From Halomicrobium zhouii (GTDB lineage: Archaea > Halobacteriota > Halobacteria > Halobacteriales > Haloarculaceae), in contig NZ_FOZK01000001.1 of NCBI RefSeq assembly GCF_900114435.1, positions 1,302,001-1,366,000 on the forward strand: 64,000 nucleotides of DNA, in the 5' to 3' direction. Numbering within the stretch: the stretch's first letter is position 1; each line of letters begins with the position of its first letter. The position numbers and the translations under genes were made by a program. Shown here in pieces: positions 1,309-31,624 of this stretch. The notes under the pieces are model-generated. The model worked only from the letters and a program-made list of their open reading frames with translations. It was not told the DNA's origin and ran no database searches.

Positions 1309-1474
1309 ACGAGCGACCCCCGGTCCGCCGGCGCCTGATCCGACGGCGCCTGGTCCGTTTCGACGACCGATTCGCGACATCCGAACCAACCAGTAGACGA
1401 CGGCGGGACGGCGTCGGCTACCGGCGCGCCGGAGGAGACACGCTTTTCCGTCCTGGGACACTATCCTCAGGTGA

Positions 1475-2218
1475 ATGGACTCCGCCGAGTTGCTCGACTT
1501 GCTCGGGAACGCGAACCGCCGTCGCATTCTCAGGTTGCTCGCGCACAAACCCTGTTACGTGACCGAGATCAGTGAGTACCTGGGCGTCAGTCCGAAGGCG
1601 GTCATCGACCACCTCGGGAAACTCGACGACGCCGGCCTGGTCGAGAGTCGCACCGACGACCGGCGGCGCAAGTACTTCTCTATCGCACGGAACCTCCGCC
1701 TCGAGGTCCAGGTCTCGCCTCACGAGTTCGGTGCGAAGAGCGCCTACCCCGCGAACCCGGGCTTCGACGTGAGTTCCTGTCGTTACGTCAGCATCGAAGT
1801 CGACGGCGCTGACGGGGACAGCACCGACGGGGACGGCACCGATGGCGCGACGAGCGTCGACGACGCCGGCGACGATGCCGGTGAGGACGTCGACGCCGAT
1901 ACGGAGGCGTTGAAACGGCACGCCAGGGAACTCGAGCGACTCAAACAGCTCGAAAACGAGCTCTCGCTGGCCCAGCGGTGGGTCCAGGGCAGTCTCTCGG
2001 AGGTCCGGGAGAACATCGACGAGGCCGTCGAGGACGGCACCGACGACGGCCGCCTCTACGCGGCCGTCATCGGCGCGCTCGCCACCGGTGACCGCGACGT
2101 CCGGACGATCAGTCGCGACGTCGAGGCCCACCCCGAGTTCGTCGAGGAAGCCCTGGAGTGGCTCGCCAGTGAGGGCATCGTCGAGCAGTCCGGCGAGACC
2201 TGGCGCCTGTGTGACTGA
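1475..2218 (+). CDS. ArsR-family winged-helix transcriptional regulator
   Basis: The 247-residue protein has an N-terminal winged helix-turn-helix (residues of about 5-75) with the pattern LLGNANRRRILRLL, then CYVTEISEYLGVSPKAVIDHL as recognition region and a wing around ESRTDDRRRKYFSIA. This is the haloarchaeal ArsR/HTH_20 type. A central stretch (about 105-145) is an Asp/Gly/Thr-rich linker, followed by a helical segment (about 146-195, repeated Leu/Glu) and a second small C-terminal domain that looks like another winged helix (DVEAHPEFVEEALEWLASEGIVEQ). No metal-binding cysteines typical of ArsR sensors stand out, so the ligand is unknown. It may regulate the upstream secreted protein, but only proximity suggests that. 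Confidence 0.85.
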   Translation: MDSAELLDLLGNANRRRILRLLAHKPCYVTEISEYLGVSPKAVIDHLGKLDDAGLVESRTDDRRRKYFSIARNLRLEVQVSPHEFGAKSAYPANPGFDVSSCRYVSIEVDGADGDSTDGDGTDGATSVDDAGDDAGEDVDADTEALKRHARELERLKQLENELSLAQRWVQGSLSEVRENIDEAVEDGTDDGRLYAAVIGALATGDRDVRTISRDVEAHPEFVEEALEWLASEGIVEQSGETWRLCD

Positions 2219-2230
2219 CCGTGTCGCGGA

Positions 2231-2803
2231 CTACAGGTCGCGGGTCACGCCGTCCCGCAGGTCACGCCCCGCGTAGAAGCCGCCGACCGCCGCCAGGGCG
2301 CCGACGGCGGCGCCGGCGATGGGTACCAGCCCGCCCGTGACGACGGAGAGTCCCATCGCACCGAGAAAGAGCGCCAGCGCACCGCTCGCACCACCGGCGG
2401 CCGCTGCCTCGAGGTAGCGCGGCTTCGCCGAGAGCGTCCCAACGAGGCCGGCCATCAGGAAGATGCCGAGAAACCCGGCGAAGGGGATCAGGGGGATCAG
2501 GTTCCCGAGGACGAAGGCGCCGACGAGCGCCGCCCCGAGTTGCAGGACGAAGGTCGTCGGCGAGAAGACGCTGCTTGCGCGACGCTTGAGGCGGCCGACT
2601 CGCGAGGACTCTGTGTCGGTGGTTTCGGCCGGTGCCGACGTCGACGTACCGATCCCGAACTCCGTCCCGTGTTCGTCCGGGCTGGCGACGGTGCCGTCGC
2701 CGTCGACGCCGAACTCGTCGCTATCGATGCCGACGACGTCCTCGTCGGCGCGCTTCCCGCCGCCGTCCCCGTTCCGGGTGAGTTCGTCCGTCCGTTCGGC
2801 CAT
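2231..2803 (-). CDS. Membrane protein with acidic N-terminal region
   Basis: Function is not recognised. The ATG at 2801-2803 (MAERTDELTRN) gives 190 residues; an upstream in-frame start would add 44 residues of arginine-rich, poorly coded sequence and is not favoured. Residues 1-80 are acidic and disordered, then a basic hinge (GRLKRRASS) leads into three or four hydrophobic segments (about 92-112, 115-135, 140-165 and 165-182) rich in Gly and Ala, of which LAAVGGFYAGRDLRDGV is the last. The gene is convergent with the ArsR-type regulator (13 bases between stops) and lies just downstream of the histidine kinase in the same direction, so it may be co-transcribed with the kinase. Confidence 0.75.
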   Translation of the reverse strand: MAERTDELTRNGDGGGKRADEDVVGIDSDEFGVDGDGTVASPDEHGTEFGIGTSTSAPAETTDTESSRVGRLKRRASSVFSPTTFVLQLGAALVGAFVLGNLIPLIPFAGFLGIFLMAGLVGTLSAKPRYLEAAAAGGASGALALFLGAMGLSVVTGGLVPIAGAAVGALAAVGGFYAGRDLRDGVTRDL

Positions 2804-2931
2804 AGTCGTGTCTCCGGACCGAGCGTTCAAGGTCCTTTCCCCGTCCGATCGCCGCGCGGTCAGGCCGTTCGCTGTCTGCTCTTGGAAGCCCGAGCTCTCT
2901 GTCGAACAGCGTCGACGGGCCGGAGCCGACG

Positions 2932-5256
2932 TCACGCTCGCGTTTCGACGCCGGAGAGGACGATCCGAGCGCCGCCGCCCTCGCTCTCGTGGACGTCGAC
3001 CGCCCAGCCGTGGCCGTCGGCGATCTGTTCGACGATCCGCAACCCGAGCCCGGTGCCGCCAGGGACGCTGGAACGACCAGCTTCGAACACGCCGTCACGG
3101 TCGGGCTCTGGAATTCCCTGGCCGTCGTCGGCGACGTAGAATCCGTCGTCGGCGTCACCGACCGTCACCGTCACGCCCTCCCCGTCGTGCTCCACCGGGT
3201 CCGCTGGAGCTTGCGAGGGAGGGATCGTGGAGTTGTACTTCACGGTGCCGTCACTCGTCTGGGACTCGTGACGGCTTGCCGACGCGTGCTCGACCGCGTT
3301 GTGGAACAGGTTCTCCAGCAGTTGCTGGAGCTGGCACCGGTCGGCACGGATCGTCAGGTCCGTCTGGACCGAGAGGCTCGCCTCGTCCGTCTCCACGTTG
3401 TGCCAGCAGTCAGCTGCCACGTCGGCGAGCGAGACGAACTCCGGTTCCGTGGCCGCGTCCCCCTCGCGTGCGAGCGTCAGAATCTCGTCTATCATCGTCT
3501 CCATCCGCTCGTGTGCCCCCACCACCGGGTCGACGTGCTCGCTGTCGCACTCCTCCTGGATCATCTCCATGCGACCGCGTGCGACGCTCAGCGGGTTTCG
3601 GAGGTCGTGGCTGACGATGCTCGCGAACTCCGAGAGCCGCTCGTTCTGCCGTTCCAGTCGTTGCTCGCGCTCCGTCCGTTCGGAGATGTCGCGTCCCATC
3701 CCGACCACGCCGGTCACGTCGCCGCTGGTGTCCGTGAGTCGTGCGCCGGTGAACTCGTAGGGGACGCGGTCTCCATCCGCCGTCACGAGGTCCGCCTCGA
3801 CGGTCGCGTGCCCCTCCGACAGCGCCGTGGCGATGGCCGACCGGACTCGCTCGGTGTCGTCCTGGGGAAAGAGGTCCGACAGTTCGAGGTCGGCGATTTC
3901 AGCGTCGTCGTAGCCGGTCGCCGCCGCGAGCCGGTCGTTCCAGCGGCGGAACATCCCGTCGGTGTCGAGCACGTAGAAGACGTCCGCGAGCGCGTTCAGC
4001 GCCTGGTCGACGAACTCGCGTTCCTCGCGGAGGTCGCGTTCCGACGCGATGCCGTCCAGCGCCGTCGTCGCGTGAACGGCGAGGGTCTGGGCGAGGGGAA
4101 CGTCCGTCGTCTCGAACGCGTCGGCGTCGTCCACGCCCACGAGGAGGACGCCGTGGTCGCCGAGCGGGAGGATCATCTCGCTTCGCATCGACGTGTCCTC
4201 GTTCAGGCGGTCCTCGGCCGTGGAGACGTCGTCGTACACCTGCCGTTCACCGTCTTCGAACACCTGCCACGCGATCCCTTCGCCTCGCGGGAACGCCGGG
4301 GGTTCGCCGAGTATCGCCTCGGTCTCCTCGGTCCAGACCGTCGGCCTCAGACAGTCCTCGTCCTCGTCGTAGCGGTAGACCGCCGCCGCGGGCAGGCCGA
4401 GGATGTCCCGCATCGCTTCCGTGGCGGTCTCGGCCACGTCCGCGAACGACGTCGCCTGCATGAACGAGCGAACGGTGCAGTGAAGTCCCTCGATGGCCCG
4501 CTCGCGGGACTTGCGCTCGGACTTGTCCCAGACGCTGCAGATGAGTTCGCCGTCCTTCGTCTTCGCGAGCGTGTGGTCTTCGACGAAGGTGGTGCCGTCG
4601 GCGCGCACGCCGGTCGTCTCGCCGGACCAGACGCCGGTCTCCTCCAAGTCGGGGATGACGTCGGCCTGAACGAGTTCGATGTCCTCGTCCGGGTAGGTGA
4701 TGGTGAACGACTCCCCGAGCATCTCCTCTGGCTCGTAGCCGTAGATGTCCGCGTACGCCTGGTTCACGTAGACGTACTCGCCGGATTCGGCGACGATGCT
4801 GATCCCCTCCTGGGCCGCTTCGATGGCATCAAGGTGGCGACGCTTGGCCTGCTCGGCCCGCGCTCGCTCGACGGCGTTGACCACCCGGTTCGCCAGTATC
4901 GCGTACTGGTCCGCTCCGGTCTGCTTCTGGAGGTAGTCGGTGACGCCAGCCGAGATCGCGTCGCTCGCCACCTCCTCGCTCCCCTTGCCGGTGAACAGGA
5001 TGAAGGGGAGTTCGGGGTGGTCCTCCCGGACGGCCTCGAGGAACTCGATACCGTTTCGCTGCCCCATGTCGTAGTCCGAGACGATGCAGTCGACACCACC
5101 GTCCTCGAGGCGGTCGAGACCGTCGCCGGCACTCGTCGCCGTCTCCACGACGAGGCGGTCGTTCTCGCGTTCGATGCAGGTCGCCACCATCTCCGCGAAG
5201 TCCCCGTCGTCCTCGACGTGGAGGACGCGGATCCGGTCGGCTGTCGACTGTTCCAT
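2932..5256 (-). CDS. Hybrid sensor histidine kinase: receiver, PAS, GAF, PAS, HisKA, HATPase
   Basis: A cytoplasmic signalling kinase of about 774 residues with no transmembrane segment. Order of domains: a response-regulator receiver (residues of about 8-120) with the acidic pair in HVEDDG, the phospho-acceptor region VSDYDM and the conserved Lys in FTGKGS; a PAS domain (about 130-255); a GAF domain (about 265-400); a second PAS domain (about 405-530); HisKA with H-box SHDLRNPL; and HATPase_c with N-box NLFHNAVEHA, G1 DDGQGIPE and G2 GTGLGLRI. The start at 5254-5256 (MEQSTADRIRVLHVEDD) puts the receiver at the usual distance from the N-terminus; the longer reading adds five residues. Receiver-first hybrid kinases of this kind are common in haloarchaea as phosphorelay sensors of light, redox or unknown small signals. 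No partner regulator is adjacent, so its output is unknown. Confidence 0.92.
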   Translation of the reverse strand: MEQSTADRIRVLHVEDDGDFAEMVATCIERENDRLVVETATSAGDGLDRLEDGGVDCIVSDYDMGQRNGIEFLEAVREDHPELPFILFTGKGSEEVASDAISAGVTDYLQKQTGADQYAILANRVVNAVERARAEQAKRRHLDAIEAAQEGISIVAESGEYVYVNQAYADIYGYEPEEMLGESFTITYPDEDIELVQADVIPDLEETGVWSGETTGVRADGTTFVEDHTLAKTKDGELICSVWDKSERKSRERAIEGLHCTVRSFMQATSFADVAETATEAMRDILGLPAAAVYRYDEDEDCLRPTVWTEETEAILGEPPAFPRGEGIAWQVFEDGERQVYDDVSTAEDRLNEDTSMRSEMILPLGDHGVLLVGVDDADAFETTDVPLAQTLAVHATTALDGIASERDLREEREFVDQALNALADVFYVLDTDGMFRRWNDRLAAATGYDDAEIADLELSDLFPQDDTERVRSAIATALSEGHATVEADLVTADGDRVPYEFTGARLTDTSGDVTGVVGMGRDISERTEREQRLERQNERLSEFASIVSHDLRNPLSVARGRMEMIQEECDSEHVDPVVGAHERMETMIDEILTLAREGDAATEPEFVSLADVAADCWHNVETDEASLSVQTDLTIRADRCQLQQLLENLFHNAVEHASASRHESQTSDGTVKYNSTIPPSQAPADPVEHDGEGVTVTVGDADDGFYVADDGQGIPEPDRDGVFEAGRSSVPGGTGLGLRIVEQIADGHGWAVDVHESEGGGARIVLSGVETRA

Positions 5257-29093: not shown

Positions 29094-29103
29094 CTTTTTA
29101 TTT
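29094..29103 (+). promoter_or_regulatory. TATA-like box of the ATP-grasp operon
   Basis: A T-rich element, CTTTTTATTT, is centred about 30 bases before the ATG at 29129. It is the only A/T-rich run in this GC-rich stretch and resembles the element before the candidate precursor gene at 31213-31219, suggesting two separate but similar promoters. Confidence 0.55.
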
Positions 29104-29128: not shown

Positions 29129-30097
29129 ATGGTGGTCGCGATTCTCGGGACGCGAGACGACCCACAGGTCCAGTCGGTCGGGGCGGCTCTCGACGACCGG
29201 GGCGTCGAGTGGGAACTGTGGAATTCGGGGGACTGGCCAGGAGACCACCCGGTCTCGCTGTCGGTCGCCGCCGGACCCGCCGACGCCGGCTCCGGTTCAG
29301 AATCCGCGACCGGTACATCGGGAACCTGGGCCGTCGTCGGTGAGATGGTCGACCCCGACAGGGTCACCGCAGTCTACCTCCGCCGCATCGGCCTCGACCC
29401 CCGCGGCCCGGCGTTCGAGGACGACCTGGCCGAGCGCCCGTACTCGCTGGTCAACCAGGTCCGCGAGTACCGGGGCCTGGTCACGTCGGTGCTCACCCAT
29501 CTCGAATCGCGTGGCGTCCCGGTTGTCAACCCCGTCGCGGCCCAGTCGGTCCACGGACTCAAACCGTACCAGCTCGCCGCGTTCGAGGACGCCGAAATCC
29601 CCGTCCCCGACACGCTCGCGACGAACGACCCCGACGCCGCGAGGGCGTTCGTCGAGCGGGTCGGCGACGCCGTCTACAAGCCCGTCGGCGGCGGCGGTCA
29701 CGCACGGTCGATAACGCCGGCGGACCTCGACTCGGACCATCTCGACCGCCTCGCCAACGCGCCCGTCCAGTTCCAGGAACGCGTCGCGGGCGAGAACTAC
29801 CGCCTGTTCGTCGTCGGCGGCGACGTCGTCGCGACGGGCCACATCCGGAGCGAGGAACTCGACTACCGCCTCGGCGAGCACGAGGTGGACGCGGCGATCG
29901 TCCCATCGACCGTCGAAGACGCGGCGGTCCGCGCCGCCGACGTCCTCGACTTGCACTTCGCGGGCGTCGACGTCATCGCGGACGGTGAGGGGGAGTTCGC
30001 CGTCCTCGAAGCGAACCCCTCGCCGATGTTCGCGGCCTTCGACGAGCGGGCGGGCACCGACGTCGCCGGCCACCTGGCCGCCTTCCTCGACCGATGA
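29129..30097 (+). CDS. RimK/MvdD-like ATP-grasp ligase (candidate graspetide synthetase)
   Basis: A 322-residue ATP-grasp enzyme. Its N-terminal pre-ATP-grasp part, MVVAILGTRDDPQVQSVGAA, followed by RGVEWELWNSGDWP, matches the start of MvdC/MvdD-type peptide maturases rather than of glutathione- or RimK-type ligases, as does DRVTAVYLRRIGLDP. Next come VNPVAAQSVHGLKPYQLAAF and EIPVPDTLATNDPDAARAF, the ATP-binding Lys in DAVYKPVGGGG, and the metal-binding LEANPSPMF near the C-terminus. Enzymes of this type form omega-ester or omega-amide links between Thr/Ser/Lys and Glu/Asp side chains of a ribosomal precursor. Its stop overlaps the next start by four bases (ATGA), so it is co-translated with the M50 protein. 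A role in amino-acid ligation to another protein or cofactor is the main alternative. Confidence 0.85.
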   Translation: MVVAILGTRDDPQVQSVGAALDDRGVEWELWNSGDWPGDHPVSLSVAAGPADAGSGSESATGTSGTWAVVGEMVDPDRVTAVYLRRIGLDPRGPAFEDDLAERPYSLVNQVREYRGLVTSVLTHLESRGVPVVNPVAAQSVHGLKPYQLAAFEDAEIPVPDTLATNDPDAARAFVERVGDAVYKPVGGGGHARSITPADLDSDHLDRLANAPVQFQERVAGENYRLFVVGGDVVATGHIRSEELDYRLGEHEVDAAIVPSTVEDAAVRAADVLDLHFAGVDVIADGEGEFAVLEANPSPMFAAFDERAGTDVAGHLAAFLDR

Positions 30098-31002
30098 GCG
30101 ACGACACGAGCGAGTCGTTCGGGTTCACGTGGGGCGAGACGGAGGGACTGGTGTGGCTCCGCGACGACGAGGGCAACTACAAGCGCGTCGACCGCGAGTT
30201 GCTGGTCGACCTCAGGGCTGTCGCCGCGGGCGAGCGACGGGTCACGGACCTCTCCGAGAAGAAACGCGCCGCCGTCGACCACCTCCGCGAGGCCGACTTT
30301 CTCCACCCCGGTGGCTCCGTCACCCGGCACGAGACGCCGCCCGGTGTCACGCTCTGGCCGCGGATCCTCGCGTTCGGCGTCGCGTTCGCCCTGCTCACCG
30401 CCTACGTCGGCTACCGGCTCCTGTTCACCGGCATGCCTGTCGGCACCGGGACGGCGCCGAACCTCGGCGGGGGCGTCGTCGGTGACCTGCTCCTCGCCGT
30501 CCCGGTGTTCGTCGCACTCGCGCTCGTCCACGAGGCGGGCCACTACTTCGCCGCCCGCCCGTACTTCCGCCCGTCGCTGGACCTGACCCTCCTCAACGGC
30601 GTCTTCCCCGCGTTCGTCACGCGGACCAACGACGCCTGGCGGTGCCCGCGGAGCGTCCGCGTCTGGATCAACCTCGCCGGGCCGTTCCTGGACTGTCTGC
30701 AGTGTCTCGTCCTCGCGGCGCTCTCACTGTTCGTCTTCCCCGCGTCGTACCTCCTCGCCGTCCTCCCGGTGTTCGAGTACGTCCGCCTCCTCTTCTCGCT
30801 GAACCCTTTCGTCCACGGCGACGGCTACTGGATGCTGGTCGACTGGTTCGGCGCGACGAACCTCCACACCAGGGGCGTCCGCGACCTGAAGAACCTCGAA
30901 CCGAGCGTCGGCGCCCTGTACGCGACGCTCTCGACGGCCGTCACGCTGTTCGGTCTCGCGATGATGGGATACGTCGCCGCGACCCTGGTCGGCCTCGTGT
31001 GA
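30094..31002 (+). CDS. M50-type membrane metalloprotease with RRE-like N-terminal domain
   Basis: A 302-residue protein in two parts. Residues of about 18-75 (GLVWLRDDEGNYKRVDRELL to HLREADFLHP) have the strand-strand-three-helix pattern of PqqD/RRE domains, which bind leader peptides of RiPPs. The rest is a site-2-type (M50) protease with five or six membrane helices: zinc motif HEAGH at 146-150 and third ligand in NPFVHGDGYWMLVDWFG (about 237-253), a version shared with M50 proteins found in peptide-maturation clusters, then NLHTRGVRDLKNLEP. I infer leader removal or export of a modified peptide. Start overlaps the ATP-grasp stop by four bases. The RRE assignment is by pattern only and is the less certain half. 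Confidence 0.82.
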   Translation: MSDDTSESFGFTWGETEGLVWLRDDEGNYKRVDRELLVDLRAVAAGERRVTDLSEKKRAAVDHLREADFLHPGGSVTRHETPPGVTLWPRILAFGVAFALLTAYVGYRLLFTGMPVGTGTAPNLGGGVVGDLLLAVPVFVALALVHEAGHYFAARPYFRPSLDLTLLNGVFPAFVTRTNDAWRCPRSVRVWINLAGPFLDCLQCLVLAALSLFVFPASYLLAVLPVFEYVRLLFSLNPFVHGDGYWMLVDWFGATNLHTRGVRDLKNLEPSVGALYATLSTAVTLFGLAMMGYVAATLVGLV

Positions 31003-31041
31003 GCGACCGGTGGGAGTCGCGACGGTTCGGGAATCGATACC

Positions 31042-31185
31042 TCAACAACCCGTCTCGTAACACGCCATCGTGATCGGGCCGCCGCCGCCCTCCTCGCCCA
31101 CGGCGAGTGTGGTCGGCGTCGCGATGGACGCGTTCGTCCGCTCTTCCAGGTCTTCGACGAAGTGGACTGGTTCGTCTGAACTCAT
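31042..31185 (-). CDS. 47-residue candidate RiPP precursor peptide
   Basis: ATG at 31183-31185, TGA at 31042-31044. The product begins MSSDEPVHFVEDLEERTNAS, a polar leader-like region with a Phe-Val-x-x-Leu core, continues IATPTTLAV, and ends GEEGGGGPITMACYETGC. Thr residues followed by an acidic Glu-Glu pair, then Gly-rich spacer and a short tail with Thr, Glu and two Cys, suit ester or thioester crosslinking by an ATP-grasp ligase. The gene is convergent with the M50 gene (39 bases between stops) and has a well-placed TATA box. It was not obvious among longer frames because it is short. Alternatives: a small metal-binding protein, or a chance frame; the promoter and codon use argue against chance. 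Confidence 0.65.
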   Translation of the reverse strand: MSSDEPVHFVEDLEERTNASIATPTTLAVGEEGGGGPITMACYETGC

Positions 31186-31212
31186 GTCCACCAGATATGT
31201 TCCAGCGAGAGA

Positions 31213-31219
31213 ATAAAAA
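31213..31219 (-). promoter_or_regulatory. TATA box of the 47-residue peptide gene
   Basis: On the minus strand the element reads TTTTTAT and lies 28-34 bases before the ATG at 31185, the standard distance for a leaderless haloarchaeal transcript. The surrounding 31205-31245 is unusually A/T-rich (two further A/T runs at 31229-31244). This supports the short gene as real and independently transcribed. Confidence 0.6.
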
Positions 31220-31249: not shown

Positions 31250-31624
31250 CTCTTCCCGGGACGACTGTTCGTCCGGGCCCCTCTCGCTGCTCGCGAATCG
31301 CTCCCCGTTCGCAATTGAGATGGTCCCTCCCTGCGGTCGCGCTTCAGTCTGCTCACGGGTCGCTCCGCTCCCGCCCGTCTTCGAGCCGGCCCCTCGCAAC
31401 GCTCGGGCCCGGCCTACCTCACGGGTCGCTCCGTTCGCCGTTCGCGATATAGCTGGGCCGCTCCCTACGGTCGCGCCCCAGCCTGCTCACGGGTCGCTCC
31501 GCTCCCCGTTCGCAATTGAGATGGTTCCTCACTCCGTTCGGAACCATCCTACTCCTCGCGTGTCGTTCACTCCGTTCACTCCCGCTCGTCTGCAAGGTGG
31601 TCTCTCACTCCGTTCGAGACCACC
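31250..31624. repeat. Array of modular hairpin repeats abutting nurA stop
   Basis: No gene fits. The tract consists of about four to five related units of roughly 90 bases with blocks such as CTCACGGGTCGCTCCGCTC and CGTTCGCAATTGAGATGG. Two perfect hairpins share one 11-base loop (TCACTCCGTTC on the plus strand) but have different 9-bp stems: GGTGGTCTC/GAGACCACC at 31596-31624 and GATGGTTCC/GGAACCATC at 31520-31548. Less perfect ones lie near 31383-31412 (GCCGGCCC arm) and 31449-31480 (GCTGGGCCGC arm). On the minus strand the first hairpin starts at the base right after the nurA TAG. It may terminate or stabilise the nurA transcript, and the array also faces the promoter of the small peptide gene. 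Confidence 0.7.

Follow-up and report, generated by a model that had tools for sequence, protein, structure and literature searches.

The window, by which we mean the whole 64,000-nucleotide stretch of Halomicrobium zhouii DNA that was analysed, very probably carries a self-contained haloarchaeal cassette for the biosynthesis of a plesiocin-type graspetide. Reading of the open reading frames between positions 29129 and 31191 gives a gene for an ATP-grasp ligase, a gene for an M50 metalloprotease and a convergent gene for a 47-residue peptide (Table 1). This arrangement, including the four bases (ATGA) shared by the ligase and M50 genes, had been described in the original prediction and was found in the sequence as described. 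The graspetide reading given there is likewise supported, both by a ligase resembling TIGR04187 and PsnB and by a precursor with a PsnA2-like leader and core. At the gene level, sequence comparison gives good support for regarding the cassette as an archaeal version of a known graspetide kind, in which a plesiocin-type precursor and ligase are found together with an M50 protease.

Table 1 Features of the graspetide cassette (positions are those of the window).
Feature	Position	Strand	Remarks
TATA-like box TTTTTATTT	29095-29103	+	26 bases 5' of the ATP-grasp start; read in the sequence
PsnB-like ATP-grasp ligase, predicted graspetide macrocyclase	29129-30097	+	322 aa
Membrane M50 metalloprotease, predicted leader peptidase	30094-31002	+	302 aa
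Precursor peptide gene	31042-31185	-	47 aa; convergent with M50
TATA-like box TTTTTATT	31212-31219	-	26 bases 5' of the precursor start

An alternative GTG start for the precursor at position 31191 would give a peptide of 49 residues, and the related locus L001 from Halobacteria archaeon HArc-gm2 has an ATG at that place. A+T-rich boxes are seen at a similar distance before the start in most relatives. The cassette is flanked on one side by herA-like, EEP (endonuclease/exonuclease/phosphatase-like) and DUF7113 genes and on the other side by nurA, so that the herA-like and nurA neighbours predicted originally are indeed present; the names herA, nurA and EEP derive from that prediction and from sequence features. 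The intergenic region between the precursor gene and nurA (31261-31620) is repetitive and G+C-rich with variants of CACGGGTCGCTCCGCTCCC, and is poorly conserved relative to L001.

Among the NCBIfam models the ligase is best matched by TIGR04187, which describes an ATP-grasp ribosomal peptide maturase and aligns with residues 3-320 at 1.8e-33; its score of 116 bits lies below the curated cut-off of 350, and the models following in the ranking are rimK_fam, MvdC and MvdD. When all PDB sequences were searched the best match was PsnB (7drm; 2.3e-49 over residues 4-317), the runner-up reaching 2e-13, and with an AlphaFold model of the ligase (mean pLDDT 86) the top 15 Foldseek matches were all PsnB, after which PruB, MdnC and AMdnB ranked above LysX and RimK. 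The ligase and PsnB are homologous over their full length with approximately 34% identity and share the same fold. Since the ligase is nearest to PsnB in sequence as well as in fold, we consider it to be plesiocin-type and not MvdD-like as first proposed. An MvdC/D identity was rejected because PsnB fits better in sequence, in profile searches and in fold: MdnC (5ig9) gives only 1e-4, and the scores of 60 and 49 bits against TIGR04185 and TIGR04184 fall short of the equivalog cut-offs of 425 and 475 for membership of microviridin MvdC and MvdD. A RimK, glutathione or amino-acid ligase as the primary identity was also rejected, the coverage being partial and the scores lower. By sequence and model comparisons the ligase thus belongs among the graspetide synthetases, to which it is closer than to RimK, LysX or glutathione synthase. 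The searches did not place it firmly in the glutathione or amino-acid ligase families, and the original prediction stands on this point, as NCBIfam, PDB and Foldseek searches all rank PsnB or TIGR04187 first. Residues Asp281, Glu294 and Asn296 are invariant among 17 homologues and, by analogy with other ATP-grasp enzymes, would bind Mg. In a ligase tree two haloarchaeal branches are supported, clade A (the window, L001 and L021-L025) and clade B (most of whose members belong to the genus g27), and the tree gives no resolved position for bacterial PsnB.

The precursor (MSSDEPVHFVEDLEERTNASIATPTTLAVGEEGGGGPITMACYETGC) consists of a leader (HFVEDLEERTN), a predicted ring motif (TTLAVGEE) and a tail (GGGGPITMACYETGC). 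Its 28-residue leader-core stretch has a single match in the whole PDB, PsnA2(14-38), which is the peptide co-crystallised with PsnB; the full-length precursor and the precursor profile retrieved nothing relevant from the PDB. The two peptides align without gaps over 24 residues (FVEDLEERTNASIATPTTLAVGEE in the window and FIEDLGKVTGGKGGPYTTLAIGEE in PsnA2), of which 12 are identical, with FVEDL...TTLAVGEE corresponding to FIEDL...TTLAIGEE, and the score of this alignment was equalled by none of 5000 shuffles. Taken alone the match is weak (E=0.4), but we take this to be offset by the matched peptide being the substrate of the enzyme that the ligase resembles. Since the relatives L021, L024 and L027 gave no PsnA2 match by phmmer against the PDB, a direct shuffle test was made, in which the scores of the six other clade A precursors against PsnA2 were each reached by at most one of 5000 shuffles. 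A TTxxxxE[EC] core is present in all seven clade A precursors. Judged by its sequence, the combination of this leader with a PsnA2-like TT....EE core would place the precursor in the plesiocin-type group 2. In the window and in all of clade A a short precursor with a leader, Thr/Ser/Lys donors and Glu/Asp acceptors is found beside the ligase; the clade B precursors L027 and L060 depart from this pattern.

The M50 protein of the window contains the motifs HEAGH and NPFVHGDGY, and residues H146, E147 and H150 as well as G242-D243-G244 are invariant among 14 homologues. It thus has the HExxH and downstream Asp motif of a membrane metalloprotease, with membrane helices in the structural model; the Pfam M50 model scores below its cut-off. 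A daptide HExxH protease model is matched by all 14 homologues and the YydH/LiaK epipeptide model by 12 of them, the window protein giving 8e-12 and 1e-6, respectively, both below the curated cut-offs. In the model (pLDDT 85) the membrane helices are preceded by an N-terminal domain of about 78 residues with three strands and two helices, which is the topology expected of an RRE. The topology fits the PqqD/RRE-like domain proposed originally, but homology searches gave negative or weak results: neither whole M50 proteins nor N-terminal domains alone matched the Pfam and NCBIfam PqqD/RRE models, Foldseek with the whole M50 model found no RRE or PqqD, and hhalign with four haloarchaeal PqqD proteins gave P=0.0017, where the best of 50 column shuffles reached 0.081, at a probability of only 16%. 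We regard the modelled domain as no more than suggestive of an RRE.

In the pathway that we propose, the leader motif HFVEDL would dock on the PsnB-like ligase, which would then phosphorylate both Glu side chains of TTLAVGEE and join them as esters to both Thr residues, giving a bicyclic Thr-Glu hairpin with a mass change of -36.02 Da. Two Thr-Glu ester rings in TTLAVGEE are the best that can be inferred by analogy. The membrane M50 protease, perhaps binding the leader through its N-terminal domain, would cut it off, probably within or just past EERTN, and help to release the mature peptide. EpeP, also an M50 protease, is reported as the probable agent of both cleavage and export of an epipeptide and offers a precedent for an M50 protease without a transporter (PMC10885120). 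No transporter-peptidase (NHLM-type) and no dedicated exporter were recognised among the neighbours of the cassette loci, and the M50 protease apparently stands in for the transporter-peptidase that is usual in bacterial group 2. A family-wide E-x-R motif occupies the place of the Gly-rich stretch in PsnA2; taken with the missing transporter-peptidase, this may mean that the protease has changed in concert with its site. Both microviridins and plesiocin inhibit serine proteases (PMC13097080), and by analogy with plesiocin the product may do the same, although this is somewhat less likely than not.

Counting against the cassette reading are the scores below cut-off for TIGR04187 and the M50 models, the clade B cores without the motif, and the locus L028, where ligase and precursor are found without an adjacent M50 gene. 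One alternative is that the peptide frame has arisen by chance and that the ligase-M50 pair has another target, since spurious frames are common in G+C-rich DNA and one lone ATP-grasp gene (L033) has neither peptide nor M50 gene. This we consider extremely improbable in view of the PsnA2 match and of the conservation of the frame: the peptide gene is 97.2% identical at the nucleotide level between the window and L001, as opposed to only 66.7% in the 75 bases upstream, and L024 and L025 differ in it by 8.5 synonymous changes per 25 sites against 2.5 non-synonymous changes per 92 sites, so that the sequences speak for a peptide under purifying selection. Moreover, in whole-genome searches the precursor profile, to which about thirteen of the matched genomes had themselves contributed, had matches in all of the M50-bearing genomes (17) and in none of the others (0 of 11); one extra match was weak (E=0.04). 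Five loci outside the profile, L058-L062, had been retrieved through the M50 protein alone, and each contains a nearby ATP-grasp gene and a peptide matched at 1e-7 to 3e-11, with the next-best reading frame at 0.26 or worse. A short peptide gene beside homologous ligase-M50 pairs, as required by the original prediction, is thus a feature of the relatives.

The two other alternatives concern the enzymes. If the ligase were RimK/LysX-type and added amino acids to peptide carboxylates or to the C-terminus, with the M50 protease releasing a pearlin-like product, the RimK Pfam domain above its cut-off, the second rank of rimK_fam and the two clade B cores without acidic acceptors would be accounted for, and the M50 proteases TglG and TmoG do free C-terminal amino acids in pearlins (PMC10885120). 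We find this improbable, as the match with PsnB extends over the entire protein and lies approximately 120 bits above any RimK, PsnB is first in Foldseek, and the clade A cores keep the TTxxxxEE pattern of plesiocin. Not as improbable, but still unlikely, is a graspetide cassette in which the M50 protease serves for self-protection or for release of a membrane-bound signal while a general or extracellular protease removes the leader. The near-strict linkage of the M50 gene with precursor and ligase, and the similarity of the protein to RiPP maturation proteases, argue for a leader peptidase instead, whereas L028 (although its genome has another M50 gene, at L031) and the contribution of a general host peptidase to archaeal lanthipeptide maturation (PMC12144867) point the other way.

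The cassette recurs among the sampled Halobacteria. The ligase was found at E below 1e-20 in 14 of 391 sampled genomes of the class, and the M50 protein in 17 of 392 genomes of the order; outside Halobacteria the phylum gave only RimK-like partial matches, and viral and phage collections contained no relatives. Two carriers are plasmids, from Halocatena salina and Halorussus salilacus, and in the former (NZ_CP096022.1; L127:2477-3000) the precursor gene is unannotated in the public record and the M50 protein is listed as a hypothetical protein. Neighbours vary with the locus and include tRNA synthetase, MMPL, helicase, polC and cupin genes. In two genomes of the same genus as the window (G264 and G315) nurA, DUF7113, EEP and herA follow in order without the cassette, in G041 and G059 an S9-peptidase-like gene lies between nurA and DUF7113 (L084:1614-3695 and L087:1554-3773, respectively), and G114 (L086) has an insert of similar size at this junction. 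With the site empty in G264 and G315 and otherwise occupied in G041 and G059, we conclude that the site is variable and the cassette patchy. Three further observations were made. A low-G+C stand-alone ATP-grasp gene with no precursor or M50 gene nearby lies beside a transposase-like frame (L033:7715-8650 in G380), the polC (DP2) gene adjoining one cassette has an intein-splicing domain (L034:10318-14409 in G124), and a PqqD gene followed by lasso leader peptidase-like and asparagine-synthase-like cyclase frames (L064 around 1423-3200 in G064) is probably a haloarchaeal lasso-peptide cluster.

Clade B precursors share leader motifs with clade A, but their cores differ (e.g. NALYKTGPNGDIFV, TPITWFGG and RVTCPLSC), and about half of the family has cores other than those of clade A. 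In the L027 and L060 precursors the E-x-R motif is followed by neither Asp nor Glu, and the standard graspetide acceptor is therefore missing; L061 and L062 are also acid-free by motif count, the count being anchored there on a terminal DDK. We tentatively suggest, as a rather doubtful extension, that Halobacteria have a separate RiPP lineage. Its whole maturation machine would be one PsnB-like ligase and a leader-binding M50 protease, and its second-branch ligases, acting on acid-free cores such as TPITWFGG and RVTCPLSC, would form a linkage other than a Thr-Glu/Asp ester, e.g. to the C-terminal carboxylate or to E-x-R acids. The second branch thereby raises a chemical question about the linkage, which if the suggestion is true would be undescribed for graspetides. 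Three clade B loci carry two tandem ATP-grasp genes (L030:7688-9666, L061:8502-10733 and L062:8515-10606) with precursors of the form TFIEAL...REQT..., possibly for two successive linkages.

Plesiocin-type graspetides have been characterised in bacteria, and the cassette would extend their range to haloarchaea, the substrate motif differing very little between the two domains. A further family would thereby be added to the RiPPs reported from archaea, since a 2025 survey covers YcaO, radical-SAM, lanthipeptide and lasso types, graspetides being absent from its text (PMC12144867). As to novelty, the original view that no haloarchaeal graspetide with this gene set is known to be described agrees with our literature search (covering few subscription papers and no supplementary tables), which found no describing paper, but for archaea as a whole graspetides have already been predicted, in Thermoprotea (PMC13097080). 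The M50 protein provides a well-defined candidate leader protease for graspetides. As the cassette spans only about 2 kb and shows no obvious transporter gene, it is directly testable in Haloferax volcanii, a host already used for archaeal lanthipeptide clusters.

Of the known systems, MvdC/MvdD of microviridin share ligase superfamily and fold with the haloarchaeal cassette, which differs by its single ligase and a precursor matching PsnA2. The M50 proteases of daptides and epipeptides (HExxH, YydH/LiaK, EpeP) are similar as membrane HExxH proteases within RiPP clusters, but the haloarchaeal clusters have an ATP-grasp gene instead of daptide oxidases or epipeptide radical-SAM genes. Group 36, like ours a predicted archaeal graspetide group and reported only in Thermoprotea, could be compared by its description only, which includes a protein with a weak resemblance to a chromosome-segregation model and mentions no M50 (PMC13097080). 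The closest system is plesiocin (PsnA2/PsnB, group 2). Plesiocin has four repeats, each of them closed by two ester links (PMC12291112), whereas the window carries one TTxxxxEE unit and its relatives likewise a single core unit, and hence no repeated core. The haloarchaeal precursor further differs in a Cys-containing tail and in the E-x-R motif, and its cassette has an M50 gene in place of the adjacent transporter-peptidase that often, though not strictly, co-occurs with group 2 graspetides (PMC13097080). Common to both systems are the leader F[VI]EDL and the core TTLA[VI]GEE, at identical spacing.
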